This document shows, piece by piece, positions 3,247 through 37,205 of a stretch of 64,000 nucleotides of DNA. Position numbers and translations under genes: made by a program. This DNA is from a virus: the IMG/VR virus record IMGVR_UViG_3300047564_004450, positions 1-64,000 of that record. The stretch is one strand, 5' to 3'. Each line of letters starts with the position of its first letter. The stretch's first letter is position 1. The notes under the pieces were generated by a model, which did not search any database, had not been told where the DNA came from, and worked only from the letters and a program-made list of their open reading frames with translations.

Positions 3247-3271
3247 AGTTAAAAAATAAGTGATTTGTAAA

Positions 3272-16110: not shown

Positions 16111-16561
16111 GTCCCAAATCGTCTTCCGTTATTACCTTAAAATGAATTAATCTGCTTTCACAAAAATCTTGTGCTGCCTTCCATTTTGCTTTATTTTTTT
16201 CGTAAGTTAATACTTCATTAATGTATGTTTTATTTCTTTTTCCTGTAGTTTTTTGTGGCTTTACCGTCTGCCTTTTTGGTTTAACTTCTATAATGTATCT
16301 ACTTATTTTTCCATCAGATTCTTCAATTTTCATATAGAAATCTGGGAAATATCTACGAACTCTTTCTGTAGTTGGGTCATAATAAGGTATAAAAAATTCC
16401 TCACTTCCCCACTCAAGTATATTTTCTTTTCTATCACAATACTTCATGAATTTCAATTCCCATGAAGATCTGTATATAATATTATTTACATCGCCCTTGT
16501 ATTTTTCTGGATTCCTTGGGTGAAATTTTCCTTGATGATATTTACCTTCTCTTTCTCGCAT
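16106..16561 (-). CDS. 4: Head completion protein gp4
   Basis: A 151-residue homologue of T4 gp4 (gp50), which completes the filled head and is related to phage head-completion nucleases. Key parts: IIYRSSWELKFMKYCD near residues 29-44, RRYFPDFYM, and a YIIEVKPKRQT strand resembling the E-x-K core of a nuclease fold. First gene of the minus-strand late operon, with a perfect TATAAATA 25 bp upstream. Confidence 0.9.
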   Translation of the reverse strand: MREREGKYHQGKFHPRNPEKYKGDVNNIIYRSSWELKFMKYCDRKENILEWGSEEFFIPYYDPTTERVRRYFPDFYMKIEESDGKISRYIIEVKPKRQTVKPQKTTGKRNKTYINEVLTYEKNKAKWKAAQDFCESRLIHFKVITEDDLGL

Positions 16562-16585
16562 ACATATTATATAAGTCTTTAATCG

Positions 16586-16593
16586 TATTTATA
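16586..16593 (-). promoter_or_regulatory. Late promoter of the gene 4-48-53 operon
   Basis: TATAAATA on the minus strand, the exact T4 late consensus, 25 bases before gene 4 and just in front of the divergent gene 54 start codon. Confidence 0.75.
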
Positions 16594-16594
16594 G

Positions 16595-17407
16595 ATGCCT
16601 TTACGAGCACCTAAACCAGATGTTGCAAGGACAGATGTAACTTATTGGAAAGGTATATTTGCAAAACCTTCCTTAACATCGTTTTATCAATGTTGGTTTT
16701 ATCCTACAGAAAAATCTAAATCGTGGATAAAAGAAAGAGGATTAGATTTTAAGAGCCTTGAAGAAAACATATCATTTCTCTGTTCAGAAGCTTCTCTTCC
16801 TGGGTCCCAACTTGCTACTAATGAAATTCTTTCGGACTATACTGGAGTTACAGAAAGACATCCATATAGGAGGCAATTTGATGAAAGAATGGACTTTACA
16901 TTTTATGTTGATCATTATGGAGCTAGAGGAGCTGGTGGTTCGGGAAATAGTCATAACATAATTTGGTTTTTTGAAAATTGGATACAACATGTAGTAGATG
17001 AGTCGATTATTCCAGTTGGAGACAGACCATCAAGTGAAGATGGAAATTATTTTTATAGAGTTGCTTTTCCAACAGACTATCAAACTGATATTTTTATTAA
17101 TAAGTTTGAACGAGATTTTACTGGAACTTATTTGTCATATAGATTTCATAAAGCCTATCCAATTTCCATAGCATCGATGCCAGTTTCTTATGATTCTTCT
17201 CAAATTTTAAAATGTACGGTTTCTTTTTCATTCACAAGATATACTGTCAATAGATACGTTTATAATATTGCCAGTCAGGTCAGAGATAATCCATTACTTA
17301 ATAATCTCCCAGCAACTCTTAATCCATTGAGAAGAAGAGTTGATGAGAATATTGTTGACACGACTAGAGCCGTTATTGACAGTGTTGCAGGATTCCTTAG
17401 ATACTGA
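16595..17407 (+). CDS. 54: Baseplate tail-tube initiator, gp54-like
   Basis: A 270-residue protein related to tail-tube proteins. The SFYQCWFYPT start, CSEASLPGSQLATNEI and a DERMDFTFYVD strand are typical of gp19/gp54 folds, and the order next to 48, 26 and 51 favours gp54, which starts tube assembly on the baseplate. It is shorter than T4 gp54 (about 320). It could instead be a second tube-like protein. First gene of the rightward hub operon. Confidence 0.7.
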   Translation: MPLRAPKPDVARTDVTYWKGIFAKPSLTSFYQCWFYPTEKSKSWIKERGLDFKSLEENISFLCSEASLPGSQLATNEILSDYTGVTERHPYRRQFDERMDFTFYVDHYGARGAGGSGNSHNIIWFFENWIQHVVDESIIPVGDRPSSEDGNYFYRVAFPTDYQTDIFINKFERDFTGTYLSYRFHKAYPISIASMPVSYDSSQILKCTVSFSFTRYTVNRYVYNIASQVRDNPLLNNLPATLNPLRRRVDENIVDTTRAVIDSVAGFLRY

Positions 17408-17448
17408 TATATATAATAAACACATTGCCTGAATTGGTTTAACTAATT

Positions 17449-18171
17449 ATGCCATTACCTAAAATTTCTACACCATCATACGAATTATCTTTACCTTCTT
17501 CTGGTCAAAAAGTTTCATATAGACCATTTTTGGTTAGAGAAGAAAAGCTTTTAGTTCTTGCTTTAGAATCTGAAGATAATAAAGAAATTACTACAGCAGT
17601 GAAGCAAGTAATTAAAAATTGTATTGAATCTCCAAAAAGTATAAAAGTTGAATCTTTACCGACATTTGACATTGAATATTTGTTTTTAAATATTAGAGGA
17701 AAGTCTGTAGGAGAAGTCGTTGAAGTTAATATTATCTGTCCAGACGATAATGTGACGCAAGTTCCTATTGAAATTCCCATCAATCAAATTGAAGTTGAAA
17801 AAAACGAAAAGCATACTACAAAAATCAAAGTAGATGATTCTATTACTATGGAAATGAAGTATCCATCCTTGGATCAATTTATTAAAACAAATTTTGATTT
17901 TTCTCAAGACAATAATGTGGAGCAATCTTTTGAATTGATTGCCTCATGCATCGATAAAATTTACACTGAAGAAGAGGTTTGGGATTCTGCAGATGTCACT
18001 AAAAAAGAACTTGTAGACTTCCTGGATCAAATGAATTCTGTTCAATTTAAGCAAATTGAAACATTCTTTGAAACTATGCCCAAATTGACTCATAAGGTAA
18101 AAATAACAAATCCAAACACAAAAGTTAAGAGTGAAGTCATTCTGGAGGGACTTTCTGCTTTTTTCGCGTAG
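17449..18171 (+). CDS. 26: Baseplate hub protein gp26
   Basis: A 240-residue homologue of T4 gp26, a hub assembly component also related to the gp24-like 'baseplate protein' family. Conserved: the SYRPFLVREEKLLVLALES front, FDIEYLFLNIRGKSVGEVV and an acidic helix-rich C-terminal half ending FFETMPKLTHKV. The next gene starts two bases after its stop codon, as for genes 26-51 in T4. Confidence 0.88.
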   Translation: MPLPKISTPSYELSLPSSGQKVSYRPFLVREEKLLVLALESEDNKEITTAVKQVIKNCIESPKSIKVESLPTFDIEYLFLNIRGKSVGEVVEVNIICPDDNVTQVPIEIPINQIEVEKNEKHTTKIKVDDSITMEMKYPSLDQFIKTNFDFSQDNNVEQSFELIASCIDKIYTEEEVWDSADVTKKELVDFLDQMNSVQFKQIETFFETMPKLTHKVKITNPNTKVKSEVILEGLSAFFA

Positions 18172-18173
18172 GC

Positions 18174-18359
18174 ATGTCTCATATGGATTTGGAAAATTAT
18201 TATAGATTAAATTTTGCCTTAATCCAATTCCATAAATATTCTTTGACTGAAATAGAAAATATGATGCCTTGGGAAAGAGACATCTATGTTATGATGTTAG
18301 AAGAGCATCTTGAAGAAGAAGAATTAAAACGCAAGACAGCAAACAAAAATGGATTCTAA
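18174..18359 (+). CDS. 51: Baseplate hub assembly chaperone, gp51-like
   Basis: A 61-residue protein with the ENMMPWERDIYVMMLEEHL core expected of the small gp51-type hub chaperone, placed right after gene 26 as in T4. T4 gp51 is needed to assemble the hub but is not in the virion. It is shorter than T4 gp51. It overlaps the next gene start by 11 bp. Confidence 0.7.
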   Translation: MSHMDLENYYRLNFALIQFHKYSLTEIENMMPWERDIYVMMLEEHLEEEELKRKTANKNGF

Positions 18360-21300
18360 AAGCCCAGCAACTCAAGTAATAGATCAATATCTTATTGACT
18401 TGCTGGGTCTTCAAGATGAATACGAACTTAATTGGGAAGATTATTTTCGATCATTAAGAGAAGCATCTATTGCTGCTCGCATGAGTGATACAAAATATAC
18501 TTCAGATCAATCTAAATTAATTACGGATGAATTAAAAAGAGTAAAATCTGAAGATAAGTCTACAGTATTTACAACTGGTGTAAAGAAAAAGAAAGTAAAT
18601 AAAACAAAAGTAAACGCATCAAAAGTAACTTCAATAAGTACTTTTGTTCAAAAGCAAAGAAAAAGCCCTGCTGCAAATATAAAGCCAGCACAAAATTTAC
18701 TTCCACCTTCTTTTGAACAGAAAGAACCCCCTCAAAATTTATTACCACAATCAAAAAAAGAAAATATTTCTGCTCCTACTGAAAAAAGGGGAGAAAGGAT
18801 TTCTTTAATAAAATTGTTACAAAGTATTGATAAGACTTTAGGATCAATATTAAAAACTCTTCAAGATGGATTTAAATTTGATCAAAAAAGTTCTGAAGAA
18901 GATAGAAAAGGTAGAGAGAGAGGAAGAAGATCAGAAAGTGAAAAACGATTAGAAGGTGGACTTGGTAAAGGTTTAAAGACAATTATAGGTGCAGCTTCTA
19001 AAGCATTATCTCCACTCCAGGATATATTTGACAGAATTAAAAACTTTATAGTATGGGTTTTGCTTGGAAAAGCATTTAATATGTTTATTAAATGGTTTAG
19101 TGATCCTGCAAACCAAAAAACTTTTAACACAATTGTAAAATTTCTTTCAGATCATTGGCTTCTTTTAGTTGGTTCCTATCTGGCATTCGGAACTTCAATA
19201 GGAAGATTAGTTACTGGTCTTATTGGTAAATTAGCTGGATTTACTATTAAAATGGGCATAGTTATTGCCCAAAAACTCCTTCCATTAATAGGAAAAATGG
19301 GAGGTAAAGGTAAACTTGCTTTACTTGCTGCGGGTGGATTGGCTGTTGCTGGTGCAGCTCGTGCCTTAGGTGGAAATAAAAACACTGAAGTAGATACTCC
19401 AAGCAAGGAAGAAACTGCTCCAATACCAAAACCAGAAACACCCTCTACAAGTGGATATGCTAAAGGTGGATTAATTGGTTCTGAAAAATCTTCTCCTTCT
19501 GAGAAAAAAGTTAAAGAATTTGGACTTCCTATTCCACTTGAACTTTTACTTGGAGGACCAGCATATCTTCCATTCCTTGCAGCTAAAAAAGGTTTAGAAA
19601 ATTTTGATGGCATTAAAGAAGCTGGGTTAAGTGCTACTAAAAAAGCATCTAAATTTAATCCAATATCTTTGTTAGCAAATCAATTCGGTGCGTTTGGGAA
19701 AGATAAAAATCAAAAATCTTCAGTACCTAAATTTGAATCTGGTGGAGTTGTAGGAGAAAGAAATAAAAAATCTTTCCCATTATTAGAAGCTTTAAAATAT
19801 ACACCACTTGGATTAGCATTTCAATCGGGAAAATTTGGTGCAGAAAATTTAGGAAAGGCAGTATCTGGCGGTGCTGGATTAGTAGGTAAGGGTTTAGAAC
19901 TTGGAGGAAAGGCATCTAAAAAAGCACTTGAATTTAGTCCTTTGGGATTACTGCTAAAAGCAGGAAAATTTGGTGCCGAAAATTTGGGCAAAGGTTTAGA
20001 ACTTGGAGGAAAGGCATCTAAAAAAGCACTTGAATTTAGTCCTTTAGGATTAGCATTTAAAGCAGGAAAATTTGGTGCAGAAAATTTAGGGAAGGCAGTA
20101 TCTAGTGCTGCTGGATTGGCAGGTAAAGCATTTTCGGGATTTGGGAAAGTTGCTTCTGGAGCTGGAGATTTAGTAAAAAGTGGAATAAAAAATACTGTAA
20201 AATTATCCACTTTACCATTAACAGTTGGACTATCTGGATTAAAAGGCGCATCGGATATAGTAAAAGGTGGTATTCTTAAAAATCCAAAAATACAATCAGA
20301 ATTAGATAAACTTTCAAAACAAGCAAAAGCAACTGGATTAAATCAAGATCCTAAATTTATTGCTTTAGGTGGAATTGGAGGACTTGCATCAATCATTGCA
20401 GAAAAGTCTGGTCCATTAATTTCACAGCAAGTAAAAAATCAAAATTCCCAGACAAAAACAGGAGGATTTGCTTCTGGTGGCGTGATTGGAACAGACTTGA
20501 CAAATGGAATTCCAATTACTGGCGCTGGAAAAGATAATACTCTCATAAAAGCAAAAACTGGTGATGCAGTTCTTACTGAAAAAGATCAGAGTGTATTATC
20601 AAAAGTAATAAGTGGTGGTGGAATTGGTGCATTTGGTGGACCACTTGGTTCAATGATGGGTGGAGGAATGGGTCTTCTCGGAAATAAGAATAGAGAAGAT
20701 ACTACAATTGCTGTAAGAAAAGGAGAAGCAATTTTAACTCCAGAACATCAAACTTCTATATTTCAAAAATTTGGAGTCAATATTCCAGAATGGTTATCGG
20801 GAAGAAAACCAAATAAAGTTGATTCTGATAAAATAAAAACCAAAACTGGGGTTGGATTTTCCAATGGAGGAATTGTTGGTGGATATGCTTCTGGTGGTAT
20901 AGTTGGTGGAACTTCGGTATTAGATCTTGGAAAAAAAATGTCTGGTGATCCAGATCATAAATTTGATCCAACATTAGCACAGTCAATCCCTCTTCTTTAT
21001 AGAATGCTTCAAAGTGGAAGATTTAAGGAGAAGGGTTGGGGAGATAAAAAATTCATGGATCAATTGACCGCAAGGTTACTTGTGGAATCTAAGAATTTTA
21101 GTAGAGCTAAAGAAATGTACAATTCGGATCCAAGAGATCCGAAAGGAAAGGAAGGTTATCATTATTTTTCTGGTTATTCTGGAATGATTGGAAATAAAAA
21201 TGCAGATGATGCATATAATTTCCGTGGAAGAGGAGCAATACAATTAACTGGAAGAGATAATTATCAGGGATTTAATAAATGGTTAGCAAGAAATGGTCAT

Positions 21301-24111
21301 AAGGGAGTTGATGTAATTAAAAATCCAGATCTTTTATCTAAAGATCCAAAAGTTCAAGCATTATCCACACTATATTATCTTGAAGATAGAGAGAAAACAT
21401 TTGGTGTTAATTTTGCCGATATGGCAAAAAAGGGTGATAGCAAATCATTTACTTACAATATAAATGGTGGATATAATCATCTTGCCGAAACTCAAGATAA
21501 TCTACGAAGAATTCAAGGATTATCTGGTGGTGTAAACTATGGCAAAGGTTTTGCACCAGCAGCACCAAAACCTGCAGCACCAGCACCAAGAAATCCAATA
21601 ATGAACATTGCTTCCAGGGCAATGTCATCTATTGGAAATTTCTTTGCTCCTCCAGCATCTGCAGCACCAAAACCTGCAGCACCAAAACCTGCAGCACCAA
21701 AACCAAAAAGATGGGCAATAGATCCTAGAGGGTGGGTTGGCAAGCAAGGTGGTGGAATCGTTAAAAAGCAAGGTGGTGGCATCGTTAAGAAGCAAGGTGG
21801 TGGATTGTCTTCTGGAAAAACAAAAAATATAATGGAAATATTGAGAGAACTTTATGGAATGAGATCTGATTCCTTAGAAAGGCAGGGAAGAACGAATGAT
21901 GCTTATGGACTGAGAGCATCTAAATTAGAAAATTCAAATAAAAACTTCAACGATAAAATTCTAGATTTTTATAATAAATTTATTTTTAATAGAAATAAAT
22001 CTTTCAACGCAAACAAACCTGTTGCTAAAAATGTTCCAAAGAATAGAGGTCCATTTGGTGCAGATTTGGGATTGAAAATAAATCCAATAAAAACAAATTA
22101 TAATTTTAAACCAAGTCAAAATAAGAACCTTGTAAGTACGGCATTTAATCCAAATGTAAAATTAAATGTTCAGCAACCTAAGAAGCAATCTATATCTGAT
22201 AGTTTAAGGGAACTTCGTGAAATGAGAGCAAGGTCACTTGATAGACAAGGTGACACATTGGGTGCATTGGGAGTAAGAGCATCTAATTATAATTTGCCAA
22301 AAATTGATACAAGTAAGTTAAAAGTAGATCCTAAAAAGGCTTATGGAAGTAATTTAAATCTTTCAACTCCCACACCTTCAGCACCACCTCCTCCATCAAT
22401 AGATTCTGCAACAAACTTGCCGATTAAAACAACTACTGATGCCCCACCTCCACCGATTCAACAGAAAGCTGGTGGTGGAATAATTAAAAAAATTACGTCA
22501 GGGATTGGTGGGTTTTTTCAACAAAATAGAAAGAGAGACATTGCTAGAAAAGCTATTAAAAAAACTACTAGCAAATCTTCAGGTATAAAATCTGGAGTTT
22601 CTACTATTACTGGAAAAAAATCTCCATCAGAAAATCAAAAGAAAGGATTTTGGGGAAATGTTTCCGATACAATATCTGGAATAAATTCTGGAGTAAAAAC
22701 AACAAAAGAATCACTTGAAAAAGGAAAATATTTAAAATCTGCAGCAAATTTTTTTGGAGGAATCCCTAAACGAGTTTCAAATATTGGATCTGGAATAGCA
22801 AAAAATCCAAAAATGATGAAAATTGGTGGGGCATTTGGCAAGTTTGGTGGAAGAATGGTTCCTGGTTTAGGCGTTGCTGCAAGTGCTGCTGATGCTGCGG
22901 CAAGAGCAGAGAGGGGTGATAAATTTGGTGCTGCCTTAGCTGGATTTGGTGCTGCATCTGGAGCAACAACACTTGCAACATCTGGTGCGTCATTGACTGG
23001 AGTTGGTGCTGCAATTCCTGCAATTGCTGAAGCAGCATCTATGGTATCTGATGTAGCATTATTAGGAAAAGATATCTGGGACATTTCTACAGCAAAAGAT
23101 CCAGTAAATAAGAAAAAAGATTCTGATGAAAAAAATAAAAAGCAAACGAGTAGATTATACAAAGATACTCTTACATCTAAGGCTGCTAGAATGCAAGGGG
23201 GTGGATTAGTTAATTTTGGTGGAGGTAGAGTTAATATTGCAAATCCCGAAAAATATTATCAGAATCAATTAGAGTCTATGCTTGGTTCTCAATTTGGAGT
23301 TAATTTAAGTACACCACAATCAAGACCAGATAGCATTCAACCATTCCAGCAATTTGGATCTGGACTTGGATCCTTAGGTGAAAGGGCAAGAAATATATTT
23401 TCACCACTTACTAATTTATTTGGAGGGAGAAGAAATCAAGCATTCCCACAACCACAATCTGCTCCAATAGCACCTACATTACCACAAATGCCACAGGTTG
23501 TTCCTTCTCCCCCAAAGTCAATTCAACCTTCTCCATCAACTTTGTTAGCACCTGTTAAAAAATCCTTGATGCAACAGCAGGCAGATGAACTTCGTGCCAT
23601 GAGAGCAAATTCTTTAGAAAGACAGGGGAGAAGTGCAGATGCTTATGGATTGAAAGCATTTGGAAGTGGAAAGGATTTTTCATCATTTTTTGCGAGGGGA
23701 ATGATAATGGAAAATACTGGTATGAATATGCCAGGAGGAACTGCAGACAGACAACTAACTGCTTTACAACCTGGAGAATATGTAGTTCCTAAAGATACTG
23801 TCGATAGAGTTGGTAAAGGTTTCCTAGATAGTATAGTTGGATCAACAGATTCAAATTCTGCTGCATCTAAAATTGGCGTAAAACCAAATAATGTTGGGAA
23901 TAAAATAAAACCATATACATCTAATGGTGGTGGATTACCATCAATGATTAAATTGCCACCCATCACCGAAAACCTACCCACTCAATCAGTACCAGGAGGA
24001 GCAGTCCAAGGGCAACAAGAAGTTGCATTTAATTCAATTTGTACAAACAAAAGTGCTGCAATTGAAAGAAAACGAATTATGGATACTTTAGGATTCATTA
24101 ATCACATTTAG
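18349..24111 (+). CDS. Giant tail-hub protein with GH19 lysozyme/chitinase-like domain
   Basis: A 1920-residue protein. The N-terminus (to ~190) is charged and helical; residues ~225-345 hold hydrophobic helices. Gly/Ala-Lys repeats follow, including 34-residue tandem units near 515-590. Residues ~870-1050 form a GH19-like hydrolase: candidate catalytic Glu913 in LLVESKNF and the RGRGAIQLTGRDNY motif (959-972). Three copies of a LRE-MRA-SLERQG-DAYGLRA repeat start near 1161, 1281 and 1742. Tape-measure-like PGEYVVPKDTV and KGEAILTPEHQ motifs recur. It probably lies in the tail tube or hub and cuts peptidoglycan on entry. Its N-terminal plan resembles the next protein. Which T4 gene it replaces (29?) is unclear. 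Confidence 0.75.
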   Translation: MDSKSPATQVIDQYLIDLLGLQDEYELNWEDYFRSLREASIAARMSDTKYTSDQSKLITDELKRVKSEDKSTVFTTGVKKKKVNKTKVNASKVTSISTFVQKQRKSPAANIKPAQNLLPPSFEQKEPPQNLLPQSKKENISAPTEKRGERISLIKLLQSIDKTLGSILKTLQDGFKFDQKSSEEDRKGRERGRRSESEKRLEGGLGKGLKTIIGAASKALSPLQDIFDRIKNFIVWVLLGKAFNMFIKWFSDPANQKTFNTIVKFLSDHWLLLVGSYLAFGTSIGRLVTGLIGKLAGFTIKMGIVIAQKLLPLIGKMGGKGKLALLAAGGLAVAGAARALGGNKNTEVDTPSKEETAPIPKPETPSTSGYAKGGLIGSEKSSPSEKKVKEFGLPIPLELLLGGPAYLPFLAAKKGLENFDGIKEAGLSATKKASKFNPISLLANQFGAFGKDKNQKSSVPKFESGGVVGERNKKSFPLLEALKYTPLGLAFQSGKFGAENLGKAVSGGAGLVGKGLELGGKASKKALEFSPLGLLLKAGKFGAENLGKGLELGGKASKKALEFSPLGLAFKAGKFGAENLGKAVSSAAGLAGKAFSGFGKVASGAGDLVKSGIKNTVKLSTLPLTVGLSGLKGASDIVKGGILKNPKIQSELDKLSKQAKATGLNQDPKFIALGGIGGLASIIAEKSGPLISQQVKNQNSQTKTGGFASGGVIGTDLTNGIPITGAGKDNTLIKAKTGDAVLTEKDQSVLSKVISGGGIGAFGGPLGSMMGGGMGLLGNKNREDTTIAVRKGEAILTPEHQTSIFQKFGVNIPEWLSGRKPNKVDSDKIKTKTGVGFSNGGIVGGYASGGIVGGTSVLDLGKKMSGDPDHKFDPTLAQSIPLLYRMLQSGRFKEKGWGDKKFMDQLTARLLVESKNFSRAKEMYNSDPRDPKGKEGYHYFSGYSGMIGNKNADDAYNFRGRGAIQLTGRDNYQGFNKWLARNGHKGVDVIKNPDLLSKDPKVQALSTLYYLEDREKTFGVNFADMAKKGDSKSFTYNINGGYNHLAETQDNLRRIQGLSGGVNYGKGFAPAAPKPAAPAPRNPIMNIASRAMSSIGNFFAPPASAAPKPAAPKPAAPKPKRWAIDPRGWVGKQGGGIVKKQGGGIVKKQGGGLSSGKTKNIMEILRELYGMRSDSLERQGRTNDAYGLRASKLENSNKNFNDKILDFYNKFIFNRNKSFNANKPVAKNVPKNRGPFGADLGLKINPIKTNYNFKPSQNKNLVSTAFNPNVKLNVQQPKKQSISDSLRELREMRARSLDRQGDTLGALGVRASNYNLPKIDTSKLKVDPKKAYGSNLNLSTPTPSAPPPPSIDSATNLPIKTTTDAPPPPIQQKAGGGIIKKITSGIGGFFQQNRKRDIARKAIKKTTSKSSGIKSGVSTITGKKSPSENQKKGFWGNVSDTISGINSGVKTTKESLEKGKYLKSAANFFGGIPKRVSNIGSGIAKNPKMMKIGGAFGKFGGRMVPGLGVAASAADAAARAERGDKFGAALAGFGAASGATTLATSGASLTGVGAAIPAIAEAASMVSDVALLGKDIWDISTAKDPVNKKKDSDEKNKKQTSRLYKDTLTSKAARMQGGGLVNFGGGRVNIANPEKYYQNQLESMLGSQFGVNLSTPQSRPDSIQPFQQFGSGLGSLGERARNIFSPLTNLFGGRRNQAFPQPQSAPIAPTLPQMPQVVPSPPKSIQPSPSTLLAPVKKSLMQQQADELRAMRANSLERQGRSADAYGLKAFGSGKDFSSFFARGMIMENTGMNMPGGTADRQLTALQPGEYVVPKDTVDRVGKGFLDSIVGSTDSNSAASKIGVKPNNVGNKIKPYTSNGGGLPSMIKLPPITENLPTQSVPGGAVQGQQEVAFNSICTNKSAAIERKRIMDTLGFINHI
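19891..20094 (+). repeat. Two tandem near-identical 102-bp units inside the giant hub gene
   Basis: The segments starting at 19891 and 19993 are almost identical over about 85 bp and encode a 34-residue unit (LELGGKASKKALEFSPLGL, then KAGKFGAENLGKG). A partial third unit starts upstream, near 19790. Likely to vary in copy number. Confidence 0.75.
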
Positions 24112-24129: not shown

Positions 24130-27100
24130 ATGGCTGCAGGAGCTTTAGTAAAAATAACTGGCACAGCAATAAAATCTTCCAAGTTTTTGGGAAAAAACAC
24201 AGTTAAAAATACTGGCGCAATTACTACAGCTCAAAAAACAAAAAAAATTCCGACCGAAAATTCTTCTAAATTGACAAAGAGAAATATTTCTCAGGGGTTT
24301 GATTTTGCTAGTGGAGTTTATGATGCTTTTAAAAAGAAAGAAGAAGCACCCCAAAAAACTTCTTCCAGTAATGATATTTTAAAAATTGTACAATCGATCG
24401 AAAAAAAAGTAATTAAAATTGATTTATTATTGAAAAATAAATTAGAATTTTTCAAAAAAAATCAATCCAAAAAAAGAACGGATGCTGAAAGGGAAAGATT
24501 TAAATCGCAAGAAGAAAAATTAGAATCCCCCAAAAAGTTTGATGTAAAAGAAAATCTCTCTAAATCTTTACCAAAAACTTCACTTTTTGATATAGTAAAG
24601 AGATTTATTTTCTTCACTACATTGGGTTGGTTATATGATAAAATTATTCCATTAGTTCCCGCACTTATAAAAACTTTTGGCAAGATTATGCAAGTAGCAT
24701 ATTTTGCCATGGAAGTCTTTGGCGGACTGGCAAATATTTTAACTAAATTTGTAGCTGGTGGAATAAGGTTAGTTAATGGTTTAACAAAAACATTAGCAGT
24801 AATATCGGGAGCAAGAACTGATAAAGAAATTCAAGACTTTGAGAAGAAATTTAATAGGATGATTGATCTTACCATATTGGCAGCAATGCTTGCTGGTGAT
24901 ATGGGATTTGATATTTTTGATTTTCTTAAAAAAGGCAACAAAGGAAAAGGAGGTGCTCAAGCAGCGAGAGGGGCAAAGGGTGTTCTTAAGGGAGGAGTCG
25001 GTAGATCAATAAAAAGAATAGCAATAAAACTAGGAGGAAAGGGAGGAGGAAAAGTTGCTCAAAGGTTAACAAAAGGCGTTTCATCTTTTGCAAATAAAGC
25101 AACTGGAGGAATTTTTGCCAGGGGTGGTGGAAGAGCACTTACGAGACTTGCGATAAAGGTAGGTGGAAAAGGTGGTGGGCAATTTGTAAAGGGAGCTGGA
25201 AAGTTTTTAGGTAAAGCTGCTGGACCAATTGCTGCTGTAGCAATGGCAGCATGGGATTTTACCAGCAGAAAAGCATCTGGACAAAGTAATTTACAAGCTG
25301 GAGTTGGAACTGCTGCTGGAGTTGGTGGAGCACTTGCTGGTGCCAAAGGTGGGGCAGTCGTTGGAGCAGCAATAGGAAGTATTATTCCAGGTCTTGGAAC
25401 TGTTTTAGGTGGTATAATAGGCGGGGCAATAGGTGCTGGTGCAGGTGCATGGGCAGCAAGTGGTATTGCAGATAAAGCTACTGGGGCAAATAAAGCAGTT
25501 CCAAAGGAACCAACAATTCCAAATGCTGGATACAGTCTTGGTGGAATAATTAGAAAGTATGAGAACGGTGGAGTTATAAGACCGACAAGACAAAAACCAC
25601 AAGAAACACAAGTAGGAAAAGATGTTGGTGGTTATAATGAAATATCAAAACTTTTCCCAGATCCAACTGGAGCAGGGAAAGGTACTGGGGGAGGAAGTAC
25701 TGAAGGTATTAAATCAAACAATCAAATGGTTTGGTGGAATCCTTTTACTTGGGGAAGTAAAGAACAACCTCAACAAACACAAGAATCTGAGCCAACTATA
25801 GATGGACCATCTGGTGGTGCTTTAAAATCATTAAAAGATACTTCATCTACTTTCAAAAAAATTCCATTTGTAGGTGAATTGATGGGCATCTCAGTTGATA
25901 TTGCGATGGGACAAAAACCAGACAAATCTTTTTATTCAAGAATTTCTAAAGGACTTGTTTTTCTAGCTCAAAAATTATCAACTACAAAATCTTTGAATCT
26001 TGTTTCAGATGTGGGTGGAGAAGTTCAGAGATTGGCAACAGGTGGAATTGCAGAAACTGTAAATCAAGATTTTACAAACATAAGATTTACTGAAAAGTCT
26101 GTAGAGGAAGTTTCAGATACTTTGTCAGTTATAATGGAAAAGGGTGCAAATGATGCATTAACTGATATTAGAAAAGAAATTTTAAGATCAAAAATTTCTA
26201 TTTCTAAAAAAAGTGTTGATGACTCTAGAGGTGGAAGTAGTGGTGGAGGAAGTGATCCAAATTTTGGTGGAGGTGCTGAAGTAACACCTGGAGATGATTC
26301 TGGTGGTAATTACGATGATACTCCCCATGGACAACCTGGAGGAGCTCCTGTAAAAACAACATCTGGATTTAATGGCGGCAAAGGAAATAAAAGTAGAAAA
26401 ATATTTTTACATTGGACCGCAGGATCGTATTCTACTCCATTTAGTAATTATCACACTACATTTTTGGGGGATGGTCGTGCTGTTAGATACACACCTTATG
26501 GTGAAGATAAGGGAACGCATACTGGAGGAGGAAATACAAATTCGGTAGGTCTTTCTATTGCTGCAATGGGTGGAGAAGGGACGGGCCCAAATAATTTTGG
26601 AAAGTACCCCCCAACATCTGCCCAAGTAAGTGCTATGGCACTTGAAGCAGCAAGATTAGCAGTTGCTTGGGGATGGGACGAATCTACAATTGATTCTAAT
26701 GTAAGAACTCATGGAGAATGGGAAAGATTTGGAACTAGTACTGGAATTCTTTCTGGAAAACCACAGAGATGGGATTTAGATAAACTTCAACAATCTGACC
26801 AAAACAATAGTGGAGGAAATAAACTCCGCAAGATGATAAAAGGATACTTTAAACAATTAAAGAAAGGATCATCCACAGATTCTTCTACTGGAACTACTAA
26901 AGTAACCTCAAGCGGTGCTACTTTACGAGAGATGTCTTTAGCATCGGCGACAGAAGTTGTTGGTGATATTAAATCTGGAGCTGGAGCTGGATCTAGAGGT
27001 GTTGAAGTATCTGGTGGTGGAGCAGATTTTTGGGCTCTTGCTGCTATTGCTTCTCTTGAAAATGGAAATCCTCAAGGACAAGCAGATGTTGCTCAGTCAA

Positions 27101-30100
27101 TTTATAACAGATTATTATCAAAATTAAATTTTGGGCAATCTTCTAATACTATTAAAGGACATATTATAGCACCAAAACAGTATTCACCTGTTCATGAAAG
27201 TAACCCAGCATTATGGGCAGCAATTGTTGATAAAGAAAGTGCTATAAAAGCCGTAGAGTCTCATAAAAATGGTAAAGGAAGAGGTAAAAAAATAGTAGAA
27301 GAAGCATCTAAAAATATAAAGAATCCAGGATTGCAGCAATCTGCAAAAGAATTTATTGGTGGAAGAACAGATTTTTGGGCAACAAGTATTGGTATGCCCT
27401 CTTCTGGACATAGTTTTATAGTAAGACATGGACACAGATTTGGTTATTTTGCTGGACCAGCTGCGATAGCATACGGAAGAAAAAATCCACCAGTTGCTGA
27501 GGTTCCATCTCTTGGAGTAAATGTAACTATAAAACCAGGAAAACCCCAAAAACCCGAATCCAACGCTGATGCAGGTGATAAATCAAATAAACCTTCTGGA
27601 CCTAAAACATTTCCACTTCCTAAGGGAAGGGTAGGAACTGATTCTGGGCAAGTATGGGGAGCACCAAGATCTTATGGACCACATGCTGGAGTTGATGTTG
27701 TTGAAAATCCACCTTATGGTGATCCTAAAATACCAGTAGTTGCATATAGATCTGGAAAAGTAATTAATTCTACCCCAGATTATCCATATCAAAGGTCTGG
27801 ATATACATCAAACTTATCGATTGATCATGGAGGTGGATTAAAAGTAACATACTTGCACATGACACCTGGATTAAAACCAGGAGATACAGTCCAATCGGGT
27901 CAAAAACTTGGTAAGTTGATACCACTGGGATCCGCTCCTGATTTTATGCAAACTCATTTGCATTTCCAAGCATATCAAGATAACAAATTAATAAATCCAA
28001 CTAATATTTTAAAATCTGCATTCCATGGTAGTTTTGTTTCCAAGGAAGGAACTTATCAACTTCATGAAGGTGAGTTTGTCGTAGATAAAGATAGTGTTAA
28101 TCTTTTGGGAATTGATTTTTTTAAATCCCTTAACTCAATTGAAAATAAAATTTCTCTAAATAAAATCGCTCCAGATTTAATCTCAAGGATACAAGAAACA
28201 ACAAGAGGAGGAGCATATTTAAGTCAGCATTATCCAGATGAAAAACATGCAGAAGAAATTGATTCTTCCAATCCAAGTTCATCAAAAGAAACATCGTCAA
28301 ATCTTGAGTTAGCTATCAAAAATGAAGAATCAAAGGCAGAAAAAGAAGATGAGAAGGAAGATGAAAAAGAAGATGATAAGAAGCAAAGAGTAAAAGTAAT
28401 CCCAGCAAGTCACCCCCAAACGGGAAGAGGATTTGCAATCAAAGGAGTTACTGATGGTAATGGAAGACCTTTAATTCTTTCTAAGGGTGGAATAAAAGCA
28501 TTTGGTGAAATGATGCAGGACTCAAAAGGTGCTGTAAAGGGATCTGACGTTGCAAGTGGAAAAAGAAGTGTTGCTCATAATAGGAAAGTTGGTGGAGTTC
28601 CAAATTCAAATCATCTTGGAGGGAACGCTTTAGATATTCATGGAACATCAGAACCATGGATGAGAAGACATGGAAAGACATATGGTTGGATAGTTAATGA
28701 TTACCCAGGATCTCATGGAGGTCACTTTGATTATAAAGGTGATGATAAAGATTCTGGGGGAGATACTTTAGCAACAATGTCTTCAGACTCTACAATTGAT
28801 TCTGTAACTGATTACAGTACGTCTCCTTCTCGGGGAGGCGGAAGTGGTGGTGGAGGGGGAGGTGGTGCCCCTTCTGGTGGTGGAGGGGGAGGTGGTGCCC
28901 CTCCTGGGAATGATCCAGTAGACATTGAAGCAGAGCCAACTGAGACATTGATACCTGGAAAACCATCAAAATCAAAACCAGGATCAAAAGGTGAAGAAGA
29001 TTTAACTTTAGATATACTTGGAAGTTATGAAGGTCTTAGACTTGAAGCATATCCAGATGCAATTTATGGATGGGGGGTTCCGACAATTGGATTTGGTGCT
29101 ACAAAAATAAATGGAAGACCAGTAAAGGCAGGGGATAAAATTACAAAAGAGCAAGCATATGCATTGAAAAAACATGATATGGAAAGGCATAAAGATAGAG
29201 TTGTTCAACAATTGGGCAAAGAATCTTTAGATAAACTTCCAGCACATGTTAGAATTCCTCTTATGTCAATAGCATTTAATTATGGAAGCCTTCCATCTGG
29301 TGTTTCTGAAAGAGTTAAATCTGGATTGGCTAAAGGAGATTACACTGAACTCGCTGATTATATTGAAAATAGATTGGGACGCCATGATAAGGGAATTAAT
29401 CAATGGAGAAGAAGTGACGAAGCAAAAATTATAAGAACTGGAAAAAGTGGCAGGTTGCAAGGATTTGATGCAAGTCCAAATGCAATAGCAAAACTTGAAA
29501 GAGATGAAAAATCAAAGGATGGAGAAAGACCCACAGAAGCTGGTGGAGATCCTGGTGACATTGAAAAGGATCAGCAGATTGCAGGATCAACAAAGGATAA
29601 AAGATATGGAAGATTAGGAGTTCCAAATACCGATGGTCAAGATACTGGTGCTGACCTTGAATTGTTTGGAAGAAGAGGTGAAATTGGAAAAAGCTTTGGC
29701 GATAATGATAAGAGTGGGCCATATGGAAATAGAGGTGTAGAAATTTCTTTCCCATATGAATTGGTCTACTTAGATAAAATTCCAGGAGGAAGAAATGCTG
29801 GAAGGAAATCTATAGATGTTGATGGCACTCAAAGAAGAGTTTATAAAGGTGCAGAAGGTTCTGCTGGATTTGGAAATGTTGGATCTTATTTTTATAAGGA
29901 CCCAAGAACTGGAAAAATGTTTGAAGTTATGATGGGACATGGAAATAAACCATTTAAGAAATTTAAAAATGGTGAAAAAATCCCAGCAGGAACAGTTGTT
30001 GGATGGCAGGGTGCTTCTGGATCTAGTGACAGTATGCAGGGTGGTGTCTATGATCACGTATCTTTCCATGTTAATGCAGTTGATGGTGGTGATCCTGGTC

Positions 30101-30588
30101 CAATTTTTGACAAGTTTGTTAATTCTTTATTAGGTGGTGAAGGTGCAAGAATAACTGCAAGAAGAAGGGAAGAGAAAAAAGCACAAGCAGAAATTGCAAA
30201 GAAAAAAGCAAAAGAAGAAAAGAAAAGTCCTATTGCTAAAGCACAAAAGGCAGGAGGAAATCTTGTTTCTAGCATTGCTTCATCGGTTTCATCTTTCTTC
30301 GGATTTGGAAATAAATCCAAAAAACCATCTGCAGCAAAACCATCGGGCAAACCAAAAATTGTAAAGGCGCAGGGTGGTGGTCAAATAGGATCATCTAATA
30401 TTAAAGAAAAGCAAATAAATAAATTTGCAGACTATGAAAATCCATTTGAATCTGGAACAGTATATTATCAAGAAAAGATTAAATATATTACAGTCCCACA
30501 GCAGAATACTTCTAGAGGGCAAATGAAAGTATCATCAGGAGCAAAACCTGAACAAACAGACAACTCTTATAATTTAAGAAGACAGTAA
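24130..30588 (+). CDS. Giant tail protein with multiple peptidoglycan-hydrolase domains
   Basis: A 2152-residue protein. After an N-terminal helical part come a glycine-zipper hydrophobic stretch (~390-445) and at least five enzyme domains. Amidase_2 (~740-890): His761 in FLHWTAG, His861, Asp882. SleB-type hydrolase (~960-1120): Glu977 and APKQYSP. M23 peptidase (~1160-1295): His1185-x3-Asp1189 and His1276-Leu-His1278. M15 peptidase (~1420-1540): SNHLGGNALDIHG and His1532. GH24 lysozyme (~1625-1785): Glu1634 and Asp1643 in T4 lysozyme spacing, Thr1652. A second M23-like domain (~1820-1990) keeps HVSFHV but lost the first His. Clearly tail-associated by position before gene 27; it would open the cell wall at infection, glycan and peptide bonds alike. 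Confidence 0.8.
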   Translation: MAAGALVKITGTAIKSSKFLGKNTVKNTGAITTAQKTKKIPTENSSKLTKRNISQGFDFASGVYDAFKKKEEAPQKTSSSNDILKIVQSIEKKVIKIDLLLKNKLEFFKKNQSKKRTDAERERFKSQEEKLESPKKFDVKENLSKSLPKTSLFDIVKRFIFFTTLGWLYDKIIPLVPALIKTFGKIMQVAYFAMEVFGGLANILTKFVAGGIRLVNGLTKTLAVISGARTDKEIQDFEKKFNRMIDLTILAAMLAGDMGFDIFDFLKKGNKGKGGAQAARGAKGVLKGGVGRSIKRIAIKLGGKGGGKVAQRLTKGVSSFANKATGGIFARGGGRALTRLAIKVGGKGGGQFVKGAGKFLGKAAGPIAAVAMAAWDFTSRKASGQSNLQAGVGTAAGVGGALAGAKGGAVVGAAIGSIIPGLGTVLGGIIGGAIGAGAGAWAASGIADKATGANKAVPKEPTIPNAGYSLGGIIRKYENGGVIRPTRQKPQETQVGKDVGGYNEISKLFPDPTGAGKGTGGGSTEGIKSNNQMVWWNPFTWGSKEQPQQTQESEPTIDGPSGGALKSLKDTSSTFKKIPFVGELMGISVDIAMGQKPDKSFYSRISKGLVFLAQKLSTTKSLNLVSDVGGEVQRLATGGIAETVNQDFTNIRFTEKSVEEVSDTLSVIMEKGANDALTDIRKEILRSKISISKKSVDDSRGGSSGGGSDPNFGGGAEVTPGDDSGGNYDDTPHGQPGGAPVKTTSGFNGGKGNKSRKIFLHWTAGSYSTPFSNYHTTFLGDGRAVRYTPYGEDKGTHTGGGNTNSVGLSIAAMGGEGTGPNNFGKYPPTSAQVSAMALEAARLAVAWGWDESTIDSNVRTHGEWERFGTSTGILSGKPQRWDLDKLQQSDQNNSGGNKLRKMIKGYFKQLKKGSSTDSSTGTTKVTSSGATLREMSLASATEVVGDIKSGAGAGSRGVEVSGGGADFWALAAIASLENGNPQGQADVAQSIYNRLLSKLNFGQSSNTIKGHIIAPKQYSPVHESNPALWAAIVDKESAIKAVESHKNGKGRGKKIVEEASKNIKNPGLQQSAKEFIGGRTDFWATSIGMPSSGHSFIVRHGHRFGYFAGPAAIAYGRKNPPVAEVPSLGVNVTIKPGKPQKPESNADAGDKSNKPSGPKTFPLPKGRVGTDSGQVWGAPRSYGPHAGVDVVENPPYGDPKIPVVAYRSGKVINSTPDYPYQRSGYTSNLSIDHGGGLKVTYLHMTPGLKPGDTVQSGQKLGKLIPLGSAPDFMQTHLHFQAYQDNKLINPTNILKSAFHGSFVSKEGTYQLHEGEFVVDKDSVNLLGIDFFKSLNSIENKISLNKIAPDLISRIQETTRGGAYLSQHYPDEKHAEEIDSSNPSSSKETSSNLELAIKNEESKAEKEDEKEDEKEDDKKQRVKVIPASHPQTGRGFAIKGVTDGNGRPLILSKGGIKAFGEMMQDSKGAVKGSDVASGKRSVAHNRKVGGVPNSNHLGGNALDIHGTSEPWMRRHGKTYGWIVNDYPGSHGGHFDYKGDDKDSGGDTLATMSSDSTIDSVTDYSTSPSRGGGSGGGGGGGAPSGGGGGGGAPPGNDPVDIEAEPTETLIPGKPSKSKPGSKGEEDLTLDILGSYEGLRLEAYPDAIYGWGVPTIGFGATKINGRPVKAGDKITKEQAYALKKHDMERHKDRVVQQLGKESLDKLPAHVRIPLMSIAFNYGSLPSGVSERVKSGLAKGDYTELADYIENRLGRHDKGINQWRRSDEAKIIRTGKSGRLQGFDASPNAIAKLERDEKSKDGERPTEAGGDPGDIEKDQQIAGSTKDKRYGRLGVPNTDGQDTGADLELFGRRGEIGKSFGDNDKSGPYGNRGVEISFPYELVYLDKIPGGRNAGRKSIDVDGTQRRVYKGAEGSAGFGNVGSYFYKDPRTGKMFEVMMGHGNKPFKKFKNGEKIPAGTVVGWQGASGSSDSMQGGVYDHVSFHVNAVDGGDPGPIFDKFVNSLLGGEGARITARRREEKKAQAEIAKKKAKEEKKSPIAKAQKAGGNLVSSIASSVSSFFGFGNKSKKPSAAKPSGKPKIVKAQGGGQIGSSNIKEKQINKFADYENPFESGTVYYQEKIKYITVPQQNTSRGQMKVSSGAKPEQTDNSYNLRRQ

Positions 30589-30589
30589 A

Positions 30590-31930
30590 ATGGGAGTAAA
30601 TGCAGCTGCTCAGGGTGGAGAATGTCAAATAGATGTATTTGATATAACTTCAAATTATTCTGGAAAAAGTGTAGACATTAGAGAAGGAGTAATTTCCTTA
30701 GCAATATATGAAAGTTTGCTTGATAGCACAGTTAGAGTTAATGTAGCATATATTGATACTGGTTATGGTGGGGGGAAGGCATTAAGTGAATCTGGATTCA
30801 ATAACAGTGTTGGGGAAAAAACTGAACTTGTAGTAAGGCAATTTTTAGATGGTAAAATTATAAAATTAATTTTTAAAGGTGACTATCAATTAAGAACTTC
30901 TAATAATTCTAGAGAAGCCATGAATGGTGGAAGTACAACTATGACTTCTGTTAATACATGGTTTTATTCAAAAGAATCTATGGATAATCATTTAATTGAT
31001 AAAAGAGTTGTAAAAAAATATGAACGAAAAATATCTGATAATGTATTTACGATTCTGAAAGATGTATTAGGAACAAAAAAATCAATATACACAGATGCGT
31101 CAAAAAATGATTTTAATTTTTTAGGTGGGAATGAAAAGCCATTTCATAAAGTAACTTGGTTATGTAAAAGAACTGTCCCTGAAGGAATTGGAGGGCAAGG
31201 AATATTGGCGGGATATTTATTTTATGAAATTGCTAATGATAATGTTCGTAATGCTGGAGGATATTATTTTAAATCCGTAGACATATTATTTTCTCAGGCT
31301 CCAGTGAAGAAATTTATTTTATCAAATACGAATGAAATTCCTAATGGATATGATGCAAAAATTATCAATCACGTAGAGAAAACAAGTATAGATTTAGATG
31401 ATCATTTAGTTTCTGGATCTTTATTTAAACGTAATTTAGAAACTTTTGAACCTTTTAAGAACAAATATTCAAAGGATGATTTCGATTACAAGGCACAAAA
31501 TCTTATAGTTAATAATGGTGGTAAAGAATTTTGGAAAATTGCAACTGATATAAATTTCCAAAATAATGTTACAAGATATTCTAGTAAAATGTTTGATACT
31601 GGAACTTTGCCAACGGGAAGGACTTGGGGGGAACAGAAAAAAGAATCCAAAGAAATTAATTTCGACATGGATGAAATATTGAGGCAGTCAACAAATAGAT
31701 ATAATCAATTAGGAACGATAAGATTAGATATAACTATAGCAATAGATTTGACTTTACATGTGGGAGATATGATTTTTTGCGATTTCCCAGAAATTGGGGA
31801 TTCAAAAACACAAAGGCCAAGTAAGAATAAAAGTGGACTATATATGATAATGGATCTTTGTCATAGAATTACAGATAAGGGATCGTGGACGGGTTTGCAT
31901 TTAGTTAGAGATACAATTTACAGAAAATAG
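30590..31930 (+). CDS. 27: Baseplate hub subunit, gp27-like
   Basis: A 446-residue protein placed one base after the multi-hydrolase gene. The front half (CQIDVFDITSNYSGKSVDIREG, then YESLLDSTVRVNVAY) and the C-terminal RLDITIAIDLTLHVGDMIFCDF plus SGLYMIMDLCHRI segments are typical of gp27/hub proteins that form the torus under the tail tube. Position before gene 5 supports this. T4 gp27 is 391 residues; this one is a little longer. Confidence 0.8.
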   Translation: MGVNAAAQGGECQIDVFDITSNYSGKSVDIREGVISLAIYESLLDSTVRVNVAYIDTGYGGGKALSESGFNNSVGEKTELVVRQFLDGKIIKLIFKGDYQLRTSNNSREAMNGGSTTMTSVNTWFYSKESMDNHLIDKRVVKKYERKISDNVFTILKDVLGTKKSIYTDASKNDFNFLGGNEKPFHKVTWLCKRTVPEGIGGQGILAGYLFYEIANDNVRNAGGYYFKSVDILFSQAPVKKFILSNTNEIPNGYDAKIINHVEKTSIDLDDHLVSGSLFKRNLETFEPFKNKYSKDDFDYKAQNLIVNNGGKEFWKIATDINFQNNVTRYSSKMFDTGTLPTGRTWGEQKKESKEINFDMDEILRQSTNRYNQLGTIRLDITIAIDLTLHVGDMIFCDFPEIGDSKTQRPSKNKSGLYMIMDLCHRITDKGSWTGLHLVRDTIYRK

Positions 31931-36386: not shown

Positions 36387-37205
36387 ATGGCATACGCAGT
36401 AGACGATATTACAGCATCCCATCAATTGAATGTGGGAGCTGGATATCCCCCAGCTTTATTGTTGGGACCAGCAAGAATTAGAGGTTCTAGTTTTATTGAG
36501 GGTCCGTCTGTATTTGGAAATCCTTTTATTTGGCCAAATGTTTGGGCAACTGTAATGATTGGTCCAAATACAAATTTAGATTCTCCACCTACTTTTGCCC
36601 CAGGTGCTTTATGTTGGGGTGGACCAGCATTGAATAATCCATATTCTTTAGCAACTATTGGAAATTCTGGTTTTTTTGGCAACGTTGATGTAGCTGGAAA
36701 TGTTTGTGCTGGATTTAATATAGTAGCACAGGGAGAAGTTGTTTCTAGGTGCGGTGCTCACATTCTATCGTTGAAAAAGAATTTTGATATTAAACATCCA
36801 ACAAAAAATGGATGGAGATTGAGACATACTTGCCCAGAAGGTCCAAGTAATGATGTTTATATTAGAGGAAAAGTTGCAAGTAAAGATTACATTGAATTAC
36901 CAGAATATTGGAGGGGGTTAGTTGATCACACAACAATCACTGTAAATTTGACTCCAATCGGTGCCCATCAAGATGTAATCGTAAAAAGAATCGATGAGAA
37001 TAAAGTGTATCTTCAATCAAAAGGAGGTATGCCAATCAATTGCTTCTATCACATTTATGGTGAAAGAAAAGATGGTGATAAATTAATCCCCGAATATAAA
37101 GGATTTAATCCCCAAGATTATCCAGGAGACAATACAGAATATTCTATTGTTGGATGGAATTACGACCAACGTGAAGATCAAACAACTAATCTTAAGAGGG
37201 CATAA
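36387..37205 (+). CDS. Virion protein sharing a C-terminal domain with its neighbour
   Basis: A 272-residue protein. Residues ~1-120 are a Gly/Pro/Ala-rich N-terminal domain. The rest is a module common in cyanophage fibres: KNFDIKHPTKNGWRLRH, then DVYIRGKV, LPEYWRGLVD, VNLTPIGAHQDV and INCFYHIYGERKD. The next gene carries the same module. Likely a spike-tip or short-fibre protein attached to the baseplate; no enzyme motif. Confidence 0.7.
   Translation: MAYAVDDITASHQLNVGAGYPPALLLGPARIRGSSFIEGPSVFGNPFIWPNVWATVMIGPNTNLDSPPTFAPGALCWGGPALNNPYSLATIGNSGFFGNVDVAGNVCAGFNIVAQGEVVSRCGAHILSLKKNFDIKHPTKNGWRLRHTCPEGPSNDVYIRGKVASKDYIELPEYWRGLVDHTTITVNLTPIGAHQDVIVKRIDENKVYLQSKGGMPINCFYHIYGERKDGDKLIPEYKGFNPQDYPGDNTEYSIVGWNYDQREDQTTNLKRA

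Follow-up and report, generated by a model that had tools for sequence, protein, structure and literature searches.

The phage lambda gpG/gpGT chaperones are encoded with a −1 slippery heptamer near the end of the chaperone gene, which is followed by the gene for gpH, a single long helical protein with hydrophobic segments whose length scales with that of the tail. Mycobacteriophage LeBron has one tape measure (gp16, 1654 aa), which lies behind tail-assembly chaperones whose annotation joins them as a pair, and which contains a GE[FY]V module twice. T4 has separate genes for its short and long chaperones and one 590-aa gp29, downstream of gp27–gp28. In pelagiphage HTVC008M, a "putative tail tape measure" (687 aa) lies in the slot behind gp26/gp51, as does a 567-aa gene in Sinorhizobium phage phiM19. 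For T4-like cyanophages, no named tape measure was found in the literature surveyed, and the S-CREM2 products ORF208/ORF209, which resemble the proteins described here, were called endolysins.

The stretch of viral DNA analysed (64,000 nucleotides, hereafter the window) belongs to a T4-like cyanophage (Kyanoviridae), in which two giant genes, giant 1 (G1) and giant 2 (G2), sit side by side as adjacent intact ORFs. Such genes go under the names of hypothetical protein, endolysin or peptidase. The features of the cassette and its right-hand flank are as follows.

17449–18171, plus strand: gp26 homologue, short tail-assembly chaperone (phrog_150, E 2.8e-80)
18159–18165, plus strand: slippery heptamer T TTT TTC, in frame with gp26, followed by one codon and then the gp26 stop
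18174–18359, plus strand: gp51-like ORF, −1 frame relative to gp26, overlapping the start of G1; a frameshift would yield the long chaperone
18349–24111, plus strand: G1, putative tape-measure paralogue A (1920 aa)
18805–18954, plus strand: long charged helix of G1, aa 153–202 (AlphaFold model, hhalign)
19786–20185, plus strand: internal repeats of G1 (SPLGLxxKAGKFGAENLGK...), 102-bp unit
21073–21546, plus strand: GH19-like muralytic domain of G1, aa 909–1066 (phrog_181, 8.9e-18; PF00182, 0.0076)
23740–23871, plus strand: tape-measure C-terminal module of G1, LQPGEYVVPKDTVDRVGKGF, aa 1798–1841 (non-cyanophage tape-measure matches)
24130–30588, plus strand: G2, putative tape-measure paralogue B (2152 aa)
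24367–24525, plus strand: long charged helix of G2, aa 80–132, then hydrophobic helices (AlphaFold, hhalign)
26386–26715, plus strand: Amidase_2 domain of G2, aa 753–862 (PF01510, 1e-5)
27073–27276, plus strand: Hydrolase_2-like stretch of G2, aa 982–1049, under the cut-off (PF07486, 5.8e-4)
27679–27999, plus strand: Peptidase M23 domain of G2, aa 1184–1290 (PF01551, 1.4e-14)
28063–28098, plus strand: G2 motif HEGEFVVDKDSV, aa 1312
28549–28650, plus strand: Peptidase M15 domain of G2, matched aa 1474–1507 (PF08291, 8.6e-7)
29023–29364, plus strand: GH24 phage lysozyme domain of G2, aa 1632–1745 (PF00959, 1.5e-13)
30590–31930, plus strand: gp27-like tail hub protein, bounding the cassette on the right (phrog_350, 3.6e-54)
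32167–35706, plus strand: gp5-like protein with an OB fold (phrog_1922, 3.1e-67; Gp5_OB only weak in Pfam)

Other candidate tape measures in the window were set aside: the long ORFs at 40980–47270 and 56278–60783 belong to tail-fibre families, no match was found for that at 47307–56231, and the tape-measure matches of the gp5-like protein (aa 208–392) fell in a hydrophobic helical stretch and were taken as compositional.

The window gp26, which carries the database label "baseplate hub", is 63–69% identical to gp26 of B23, S-B05 and S-SCSM1; gp26 and gp51 are homologues of their T4 namesakes, the known chaperones of T4-like phages (a paper cited in PMC10885494). Directly upstream of G1, gp26/gp51 constitute a chaperone pair of the lambda G/GT type with a predicted −1 frameshift, combining an in-frame XXXYYYZ heptamer with an open −1 frame. 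The T-TTT-TTC heptamer was present in frame at the end of gp26 in 94/94 distinct cassettes, whereas a control FF pair within gp26 never took this form, and the −1 frame was open from gp26 into gp51 in 93/94; in the window, it stays open for 64 codons beyond the heptamer. A gp51 is annotated at the corresponding place in P-SSM2, S-PM2 and others. This arrangement, unlike the two chaperone genes of T4, matches that of lambda and puts G1 in the position of a tape measure, as in LeBron.

The original prediction, that the giants are paralogous in plan, was borne out by the profile–profile alignment of the N-termini that it had proposed (hhalign prob 99.2, E 6e-20, 128 columns), as well as by BLASTP of the N-terminal domains (E=2e-8). 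Shuffled profiles and unrelated families gave E > 0.1, and a reversed profile 7e-4. AlphaFold models of the N-terminal parts showed the same order in both proteins, namely a helix of 50–53 residues followed by more helices, with local pLDDT above 90, and hydropathy analysis located hydrophobic segments in both; in G1, the charged helix is followed by hydrophobic helices (aa 207–340), and this whole part is common to G2. Judging from these alignments of sequence, the common N-terminal plan exceeds mere composition, and the predicted structures are those of long helical proteins with hydrophobic segments. The giants had no sequence or fold match to T4 gp29 or to any solved tape measure, and Foldseek of the N-terminal models against the PDB returned nothing under E 1, which says little because both models have low pTM (0.31 and 0.28). 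The relationship extends to divergent cluster C (G1 against G2 N-termini, prob 96.9, E 1.3e-10) and to S-CREM2, whose giants have the module in common (48% over 54 aa, 4e-11). In 8/11 cyanophage records, the G2 profile matched exactly the pair (or trio) and nothing else. As far as could be tested, neither dissimilar N-termini nor a tape measure elsewhere, which would have counted against the prediction, was encountered.

Between gp26/gp51 and the gp27-like gene lie two large ORFs in 93/94 distinct cassettes and three giants in one, from a phage with a 284-kb genome; the duplication is old and nearly family-wide rather than peculiar to the window phage. The usual pair measures ~800 + ~990 aa, and that of the window is unusual in size. 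Lengths run from P-SSM2 (529 + 516 aa) through S-CREM2 to the clade of the window (up to 1959 + 2213 aa), in which G1 and G2 doubled together. S-CRM01 has a single mosaic giant of 864 aa. At the corresponding slot, the HTVC008M gene matched seven tape-measure PHROGs (best 8e-12) and the phiM19 gene also gave tape-measure PHROG matches (1.8e-5); unlike the giants, both are single copies without a paralogue.

Motifs of tape-measure proteins had been ascribed to both giants, which holds across the family for G1 and not for G2. The quoted motifs KGEAILTPEHQ (aa 791) and PGEYVVPKDTV (aa 1808) are present in G1 and HEGEFVVDKDSV (aa 1312) in G2, and GE[FY]VV occurs in G1 of 58/94 members against 2.3 expected from shuffling, whereas G2 has it in 3/94 against 3.2, as by chance; GE[FY]VV was therefore discarded as a signature of both. 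The G1 module aligned with the LeBron tape measure (E 2e-6) and, outside cyanophages, matched tape measures of mycobacteriophage, Clavibacter and Acinetobacter phages (E 2e-3), and the window G2 copy aligned with a mycobacteriophage tape measure (E 0.003). The sequence relationship to accepted tape measures, including the likeness to LeBron, lies in this C-terminal module only; Pfam PhageMin_Tail had no match in six genomes. Other phages commonly divide the roles of ruler and tail lysin. Together with the skewed motif counts, the place of G1 directly after the chaperones and the location of most of the window's enzymes in G2, this speaks for a reading in which G1 is the sole ruler and G2 is a former tape-measure copy, now packaged alongside it as an enzyme-carrying protein of the lumen or hub and ejected on infection. 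Yet G2 of cluster C also has the module, G2 of P-SSM2 lacks a detectable enzyme, and both giants are doubled in the window's clade and long in S-CREM2, so that we regard this reading as possible while leaning against it.

The GH19-like enzyme proposed for G1 was confirmed as a predicted domain covering ~8% of the protein: a weak Pfam match (E 0.0076) fell short of the gathering score, and the matches to PHROGs endolysin/chitinase profiles (8.9e-18) and solved endolysins were clear. In G2, the M23, GH24 lysozyme, M15 and Amidase_2 domains scored above Pfam cut-offs and Hydrolase_2 remained sub-threshold; a candidate second M23-like domain at the C-terminus was not confirmed. No lysozyme domain was detected in the window's gp5-like protein with Pfam or PHROGs. 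The enzymes of the giants differ between relatives, and the hydrolases, GH19 included, are interchangeable cargo. S-CREM2 has GH19 in the first giant and GH24 in the second, as in the window, and no enzyme domain was detected in the P-SSM2 pair. Because of this variation and the enzyme-free P-SSM2 pair, splitting of the hydrolase load, as originally suggested, does not explain the duplication.

The S-CREM2 pair shares slot, N-terminal plan and virion location with the window pair, is shorter, and contains long low-complexity stretches and ~13-residue repeats. Its authors read such proteins as virion-associated endolysins, perhaps packed in the capsid, rather than tape measures, in keeping with the enzyme domains of most members examined, their annotation as endolysin or lysozyme and their listing as virion-associated proteins. 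We consider this very unlikely, given the P-SSM2 pair, the location directly behind predicted frameshifting chaperones and the tape-measure PHROG matches of the HTVC008M and phiM19 slot genes. Published mass spectrometry identified homologues of both giants in virions, and their peptide density (0.047–0.049 per residue) equals that of gp27 and gp5 (0.049–0.059), a crude but hub-like value that also counts against the endolysin reading. The "hub" function named in the original prediction itself drew no support from anything tested.

Published tail lengths were compared with giant lengths for S-CREM2 (418 nm; 1565 + 1456 aa), S-SCSM1 (173 nm; 950 + 1131 aa), S-CREM1 (165 nm; 1016 + 991 aa), S-N03 (138 nm; 933 + 722 aa), S-H34 (129 nm; 936 + 735 aa) and S-SRM01 (~100 nm; 536 + 636 aa). 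The set is small, S-N03 and S-H34 are related to each other, and the measurements come from different groups. S-SZBM1 and Nanhaivirus ms29, with published tails and giants not located, were left out. Without S-CREM2, tail length followed the G1+G2 sum (r = 0.987, n = 5), G2 (r 0.94) and G1 (r 0.83), which argues against G1 as sole ruler since G2 performs about as well; gp5 and gp27 lengths showed no correlation. The per-chain ratio of these five, 0.14–0.19 nm per residue, fits the α-helical length seen for the phiCbK and Colossus tape measures. S-CREM2, with the longest giant pair among the isolates examined, lies off their line at 0.27–0.29, so scaling is not simple. An end-to-end junction of G1 and G2, with the summed length setting the tail, would account for the tightest fit and for the S-CREM2 sum of 0.138 nm per residue, close to a helix. 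The sum in the other five isolates, however, amounts to 0.077–0.085, about half a helix, and S-CRM01, with one 864-aa chain, has a normal published tail of 140–170 nm, as long as in two-chain phages; such a junction is accordingly disfavoured and, in our view, unlikely. Phylogeny-corrected covariation of G1 and G2 lengths, without the long clade, was modest (r 0.21, p 0.047; sign agreement 60/87), and that of G1 with gp5 similarly weak (r 0.24).

A search of 12 relatives that recovered the T4 positive control turned up no homologue of T4 gp29, and the gp29 profile had no significant match to either giant family (hhalign best prob 8.3), which by sequence places the giants outside the gp29 family. 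Replacement of gene 29, as originally envisaged, stands as to position and probable role; it cannot be shown as descent because gp29 and the giants lack detectable sequence similarity, and gp29 lies downstream of gp27–gp28 whereas the giants lie upstream of gp27. On the strength of the chaperone slot, the slippery site, the module, the tail scaling in a few isolates, the gp29 missing from those relatives and the virion location of homologues, we read the giants as paralogous tape-measure proteins derived from an old tandem duplication of a single tape-measure gene, with a probability of roughly three in four. The predicted duplicated tape measure is thus upheld in its paralogy, chaperone-adjacent slot and lack of gp29 in the 12 relatives, and its ruler role is inferred.

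The ancestral state would have been one tape-measure gene behind the chaperones, as in outlying relatives, before an old tandem duplication. During assembly, gp26 together with gp26-51, the product of −1 frameshifting, would coat the giants, by analogy with the G/GT system, and the tube would polymerise until the ruler is exhausted. The tube lumen would hold both chains, probably running alongside each other rather than end to end, an arrangement favoured by the α-helical per-chain ratio and the normal tail of single-giant S-CRM01. On infection, both giants may leave with the DNA, the hydrophobic helices contributing to a channel while the embedded hydrolases open the peptidoglycan. Tentatively, and at somewhat less than even odds, we propose a composite ruler, in which two paralogous chains (three in the 284-kb phage) co-assemble and jointly set tail length. 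Lambda has one long protein, whereas the cyanophages have two paralogous ones, either of which can bear hydrolases.

T4-like cyanophages rank among the most numerous viruses in the sea, and naming the pair as tape measures would close a family-wide annotation gap. It also suggests that the tape measures took over the muralytic load of the spike protein gp5, and raises the question of how two paralogous rulers measure one tail when other tailed viruses have one; the series from P-SSM2 through S-CREM2 to the window's clade, S-CRM01 with its one ruler and the phage with three make this question testable. If the ruler is composite, tail length would evolve by matched growth of two genes, and the window's clade, with tails estimated at ~270–410 nm from the ratios of short-tailed relatives, would possess contractile tails that rank with the longest known in the family.

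The window derives from the genome of a T4-like cyanophage and includes psbA, gp32, PhoH and T4-type baseplate genes. Its source record comprises 66,660 bases, and 16 kb of it recur in a longer IMG/VR contig (127,876 bases) with 15,998 of 16,000 bases identical. Photosystem II D1 is encoded by two tandem psbA frames, 39–905, which lacks the N-terminal part (profile positions 72–359 matched), and 1150–2211. A single ORF of 763 residues (3260–5551) joins a DNA-methyltransferase-like part to a following glucosyltransferase-like part. The tail region was annotated as follows:

17449–18171, gp26
18159–18165, slippery heptamer T-TTT-TTC, in frame at the end of gp26, identical in all 94 cassettes compared
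18174–18359, gp51-like ORF
18349–24111, giant 1 (1920 aa)
24130–30588, giant 2 (2152 aa)
30590–31930, gp27-like protein
32167–35706, gp5-like protein

Close to these tail genes lies a second tandem duplication, two adjoining ORFs (36387–37205 and 37208–37870) that both match phrog_17490, of unassigned function. An ORF of 2974 residues (47307–56231) between tail-fibre genes returned no PHROG match at 1e-5.

Of 119 loci with both borders, gp26/gp51 and the gp27-like gene, all hold two large genes in between except two loci (L063/L064) of one phage type on a 284-kb contig, in which a third paralogue (16366–19251; giant 2 profile E 3.5e-50) was added between giant 2 and the gp27-like gene. Isolates likewise carry the pair, except the pelagiphage HTVC008M, with one 687-residue gene in the slot, and S-CRM01, whose single 864-residue giant (L191:8419–11013) is a mosaic of giant 1 and giant 2 segments, as would result from recombination of the two into a single gene. 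Median sizes are 800 (giant 1) and 993 (giant 2) residues. The window's pair and those of the two closest relatives (1788 + 1971 and 1959 + 2213 residues) are about twice the usual size; maxima outside this long clade are 1104 and 1348.

The original prediction that the N-termini of the two giants are similar was borne out. BLASTP gave 28% identity over 211 residues (E 2e-8), and hhalign of N-terminal profiles built from the 94 distinct cassettes gave a probability of 99.2 (E 6e-20, 128 columns), while the controls failed, namely five column-shuffled profiles, the gp26 and gp27 profiles, and a reversed profile (E 7e-4, 25 columns). Even in the divergent cluster C, the two N-termini match one another (probability 96.9, E 1.3e-10). 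The predicted order of a charged helix and then hydrophobic helices was recovered in both AlphaFold models, of high local and low global confidence, the charged helix spanning 50–53 residues. When the giant 2 profile was searched over the whole records of eleven cyanophages and T4, it retrieved exactly the pair in seven of the eleven, a trio in the 284-kb record G010 and giant 2 alone in P-SSM2, with no match in the divergent S-CREM2 and S-PM2, nor in T4.

The last Phe-Phe of gp26 is coded T TTT TTC at a constant distance from the gene end in 94/94 genes, which are otherwise diverse (median identity 75% across the last 210 bases), and the other conserved Phe-Phe is never so coded. The −1 frame is open past the heptamer into gp51 in 93/94; S-SCSM1 (L005) retains the heptamer, but the frame closes after four codons. 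Comparable designs were found in Aeh1 (TTTTTTC), phiM19 and HTVC008M (both TTTTTTT). From sequence, a programmed frameshift is likely, and the absence of the first ~200 residues of T4 gp51 from cyanophage gp51 (PMC3037559) fits a product made in this way. A paper cited in PMC10885494 presents gp26 and gp51, by its title, as the chaperones of T4-like phages; that paper may also have described the cyanophage frameshift, for which we claim no priority. Lambda G/GT, next to which the tape-measure gene lies, has the same arrangement (PMC3556154).

The giants are read as putative tape measures because of these probably frameshifting chaperones, the slot, a C-terminal module and the failure to find a gp29 homologue in 12 relatives (T4 positive control, 4e-238). 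The slot gene of HTVC008M matches seven tape-measure PHROGs (best 8e-12) and that of phiM19 two (best 1.8e-5). The C-terminal 73 residues of giant 1 around PGEYVVPKDTV match 30 non-cyanophage records, weakly (E 2e-3 and above), from mycobacteriophages, Clavibacter phages and Acinetobacter phages; among the matches listed, all are annotated as tape measures but one hypothetical protein. In a comparison with just the LeBron tape measure, E was 2e-6 for giant 1 and 0.003 for giant 2. No fold match or solved structure was found in support of the assignment, and the part of the literature covered contained no prior report of paired tape measures in this family.

For seven isolates, the giants could be read and the tail length has been published. 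With S-CREM2 left out, they yielded 0.14–0.19 (giant 1) and 0.15–0.19 (giant 2) nm of tail per residue, and the single giant of S-CRM01 0.16–0.20; the phiCbK and Colossus tape measures reportedly fit the alpha-helical value (PMC3556154). S-CREM2 departs from these ratios (0.27–0.29 nm per residue of either chain). Its giants hold long Ser/Thr/Asn-rich stretches and ~13-residue repeats, which might be more extended in shape. Its giant 2 (L187:14622–18992) has many copies of a ~13-residue FQQSMGSVAPAGG-like repeat, possibly tape units, and its tail measures 418 nm.

Tail length correlates with the summed giant lengths (r 0.987, n=5 without S-CREM2, from few, non-independent numbers) and does not correlate with gp5 or gp27 length. 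After phylogenetic correction, giant 1 length covaries with giant 2 length at r 0.39 (p 0.0005), or at r 0.21 (p 0.047) once the long clade is excluded, and shows no covariation with gp27 length; giant 1 and gp5 also give a weak value (r 0.24, p 0.09, long clade excluded). Giant 2 could be a passenger or a second ruler beside giant 1 in one tail tube; within the tape-measure hypothesis, we lean only slightly towards the second ruler.

The anticipated GH19-like enzyme was detected as one domain in giant 1. In giant 2, M23, GH24, M15 and Amidase_2 domains were detected, and Hydrolase_2 matched weakly. The embedded enzymes are swappable between relatives: cluster C has GH19 and GH24, S-SCSM1 has glucosaminidase and VanY, giant 1 of S-CREM1 has VanY, S-SRM01 has M23, and none was detected in the P-SSM2 giants. 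No lysozyme domain was detected in the window's gp5-like protein, of which a hydrophobic helical stretch (aa 208–397) weakly matches tape-measure PHROGs.

Both giants have homologues among the virion proteins of S-SCSM1 and S-CREM2. By the crude measure of unique peptides per residue, the S-CREM2 giants gave 0.047 and 0.049, compared with 0.049 (gp5), 0.059 (gp27) and 0.32 (sheath), consistent with equal, hub-like copy numbers of the giants. Both chains are proposed to lie side by side in the tail lumen, with gp26 and gp26-51 as their chaperones, and their embedded hydrolases would be freed upon infection.
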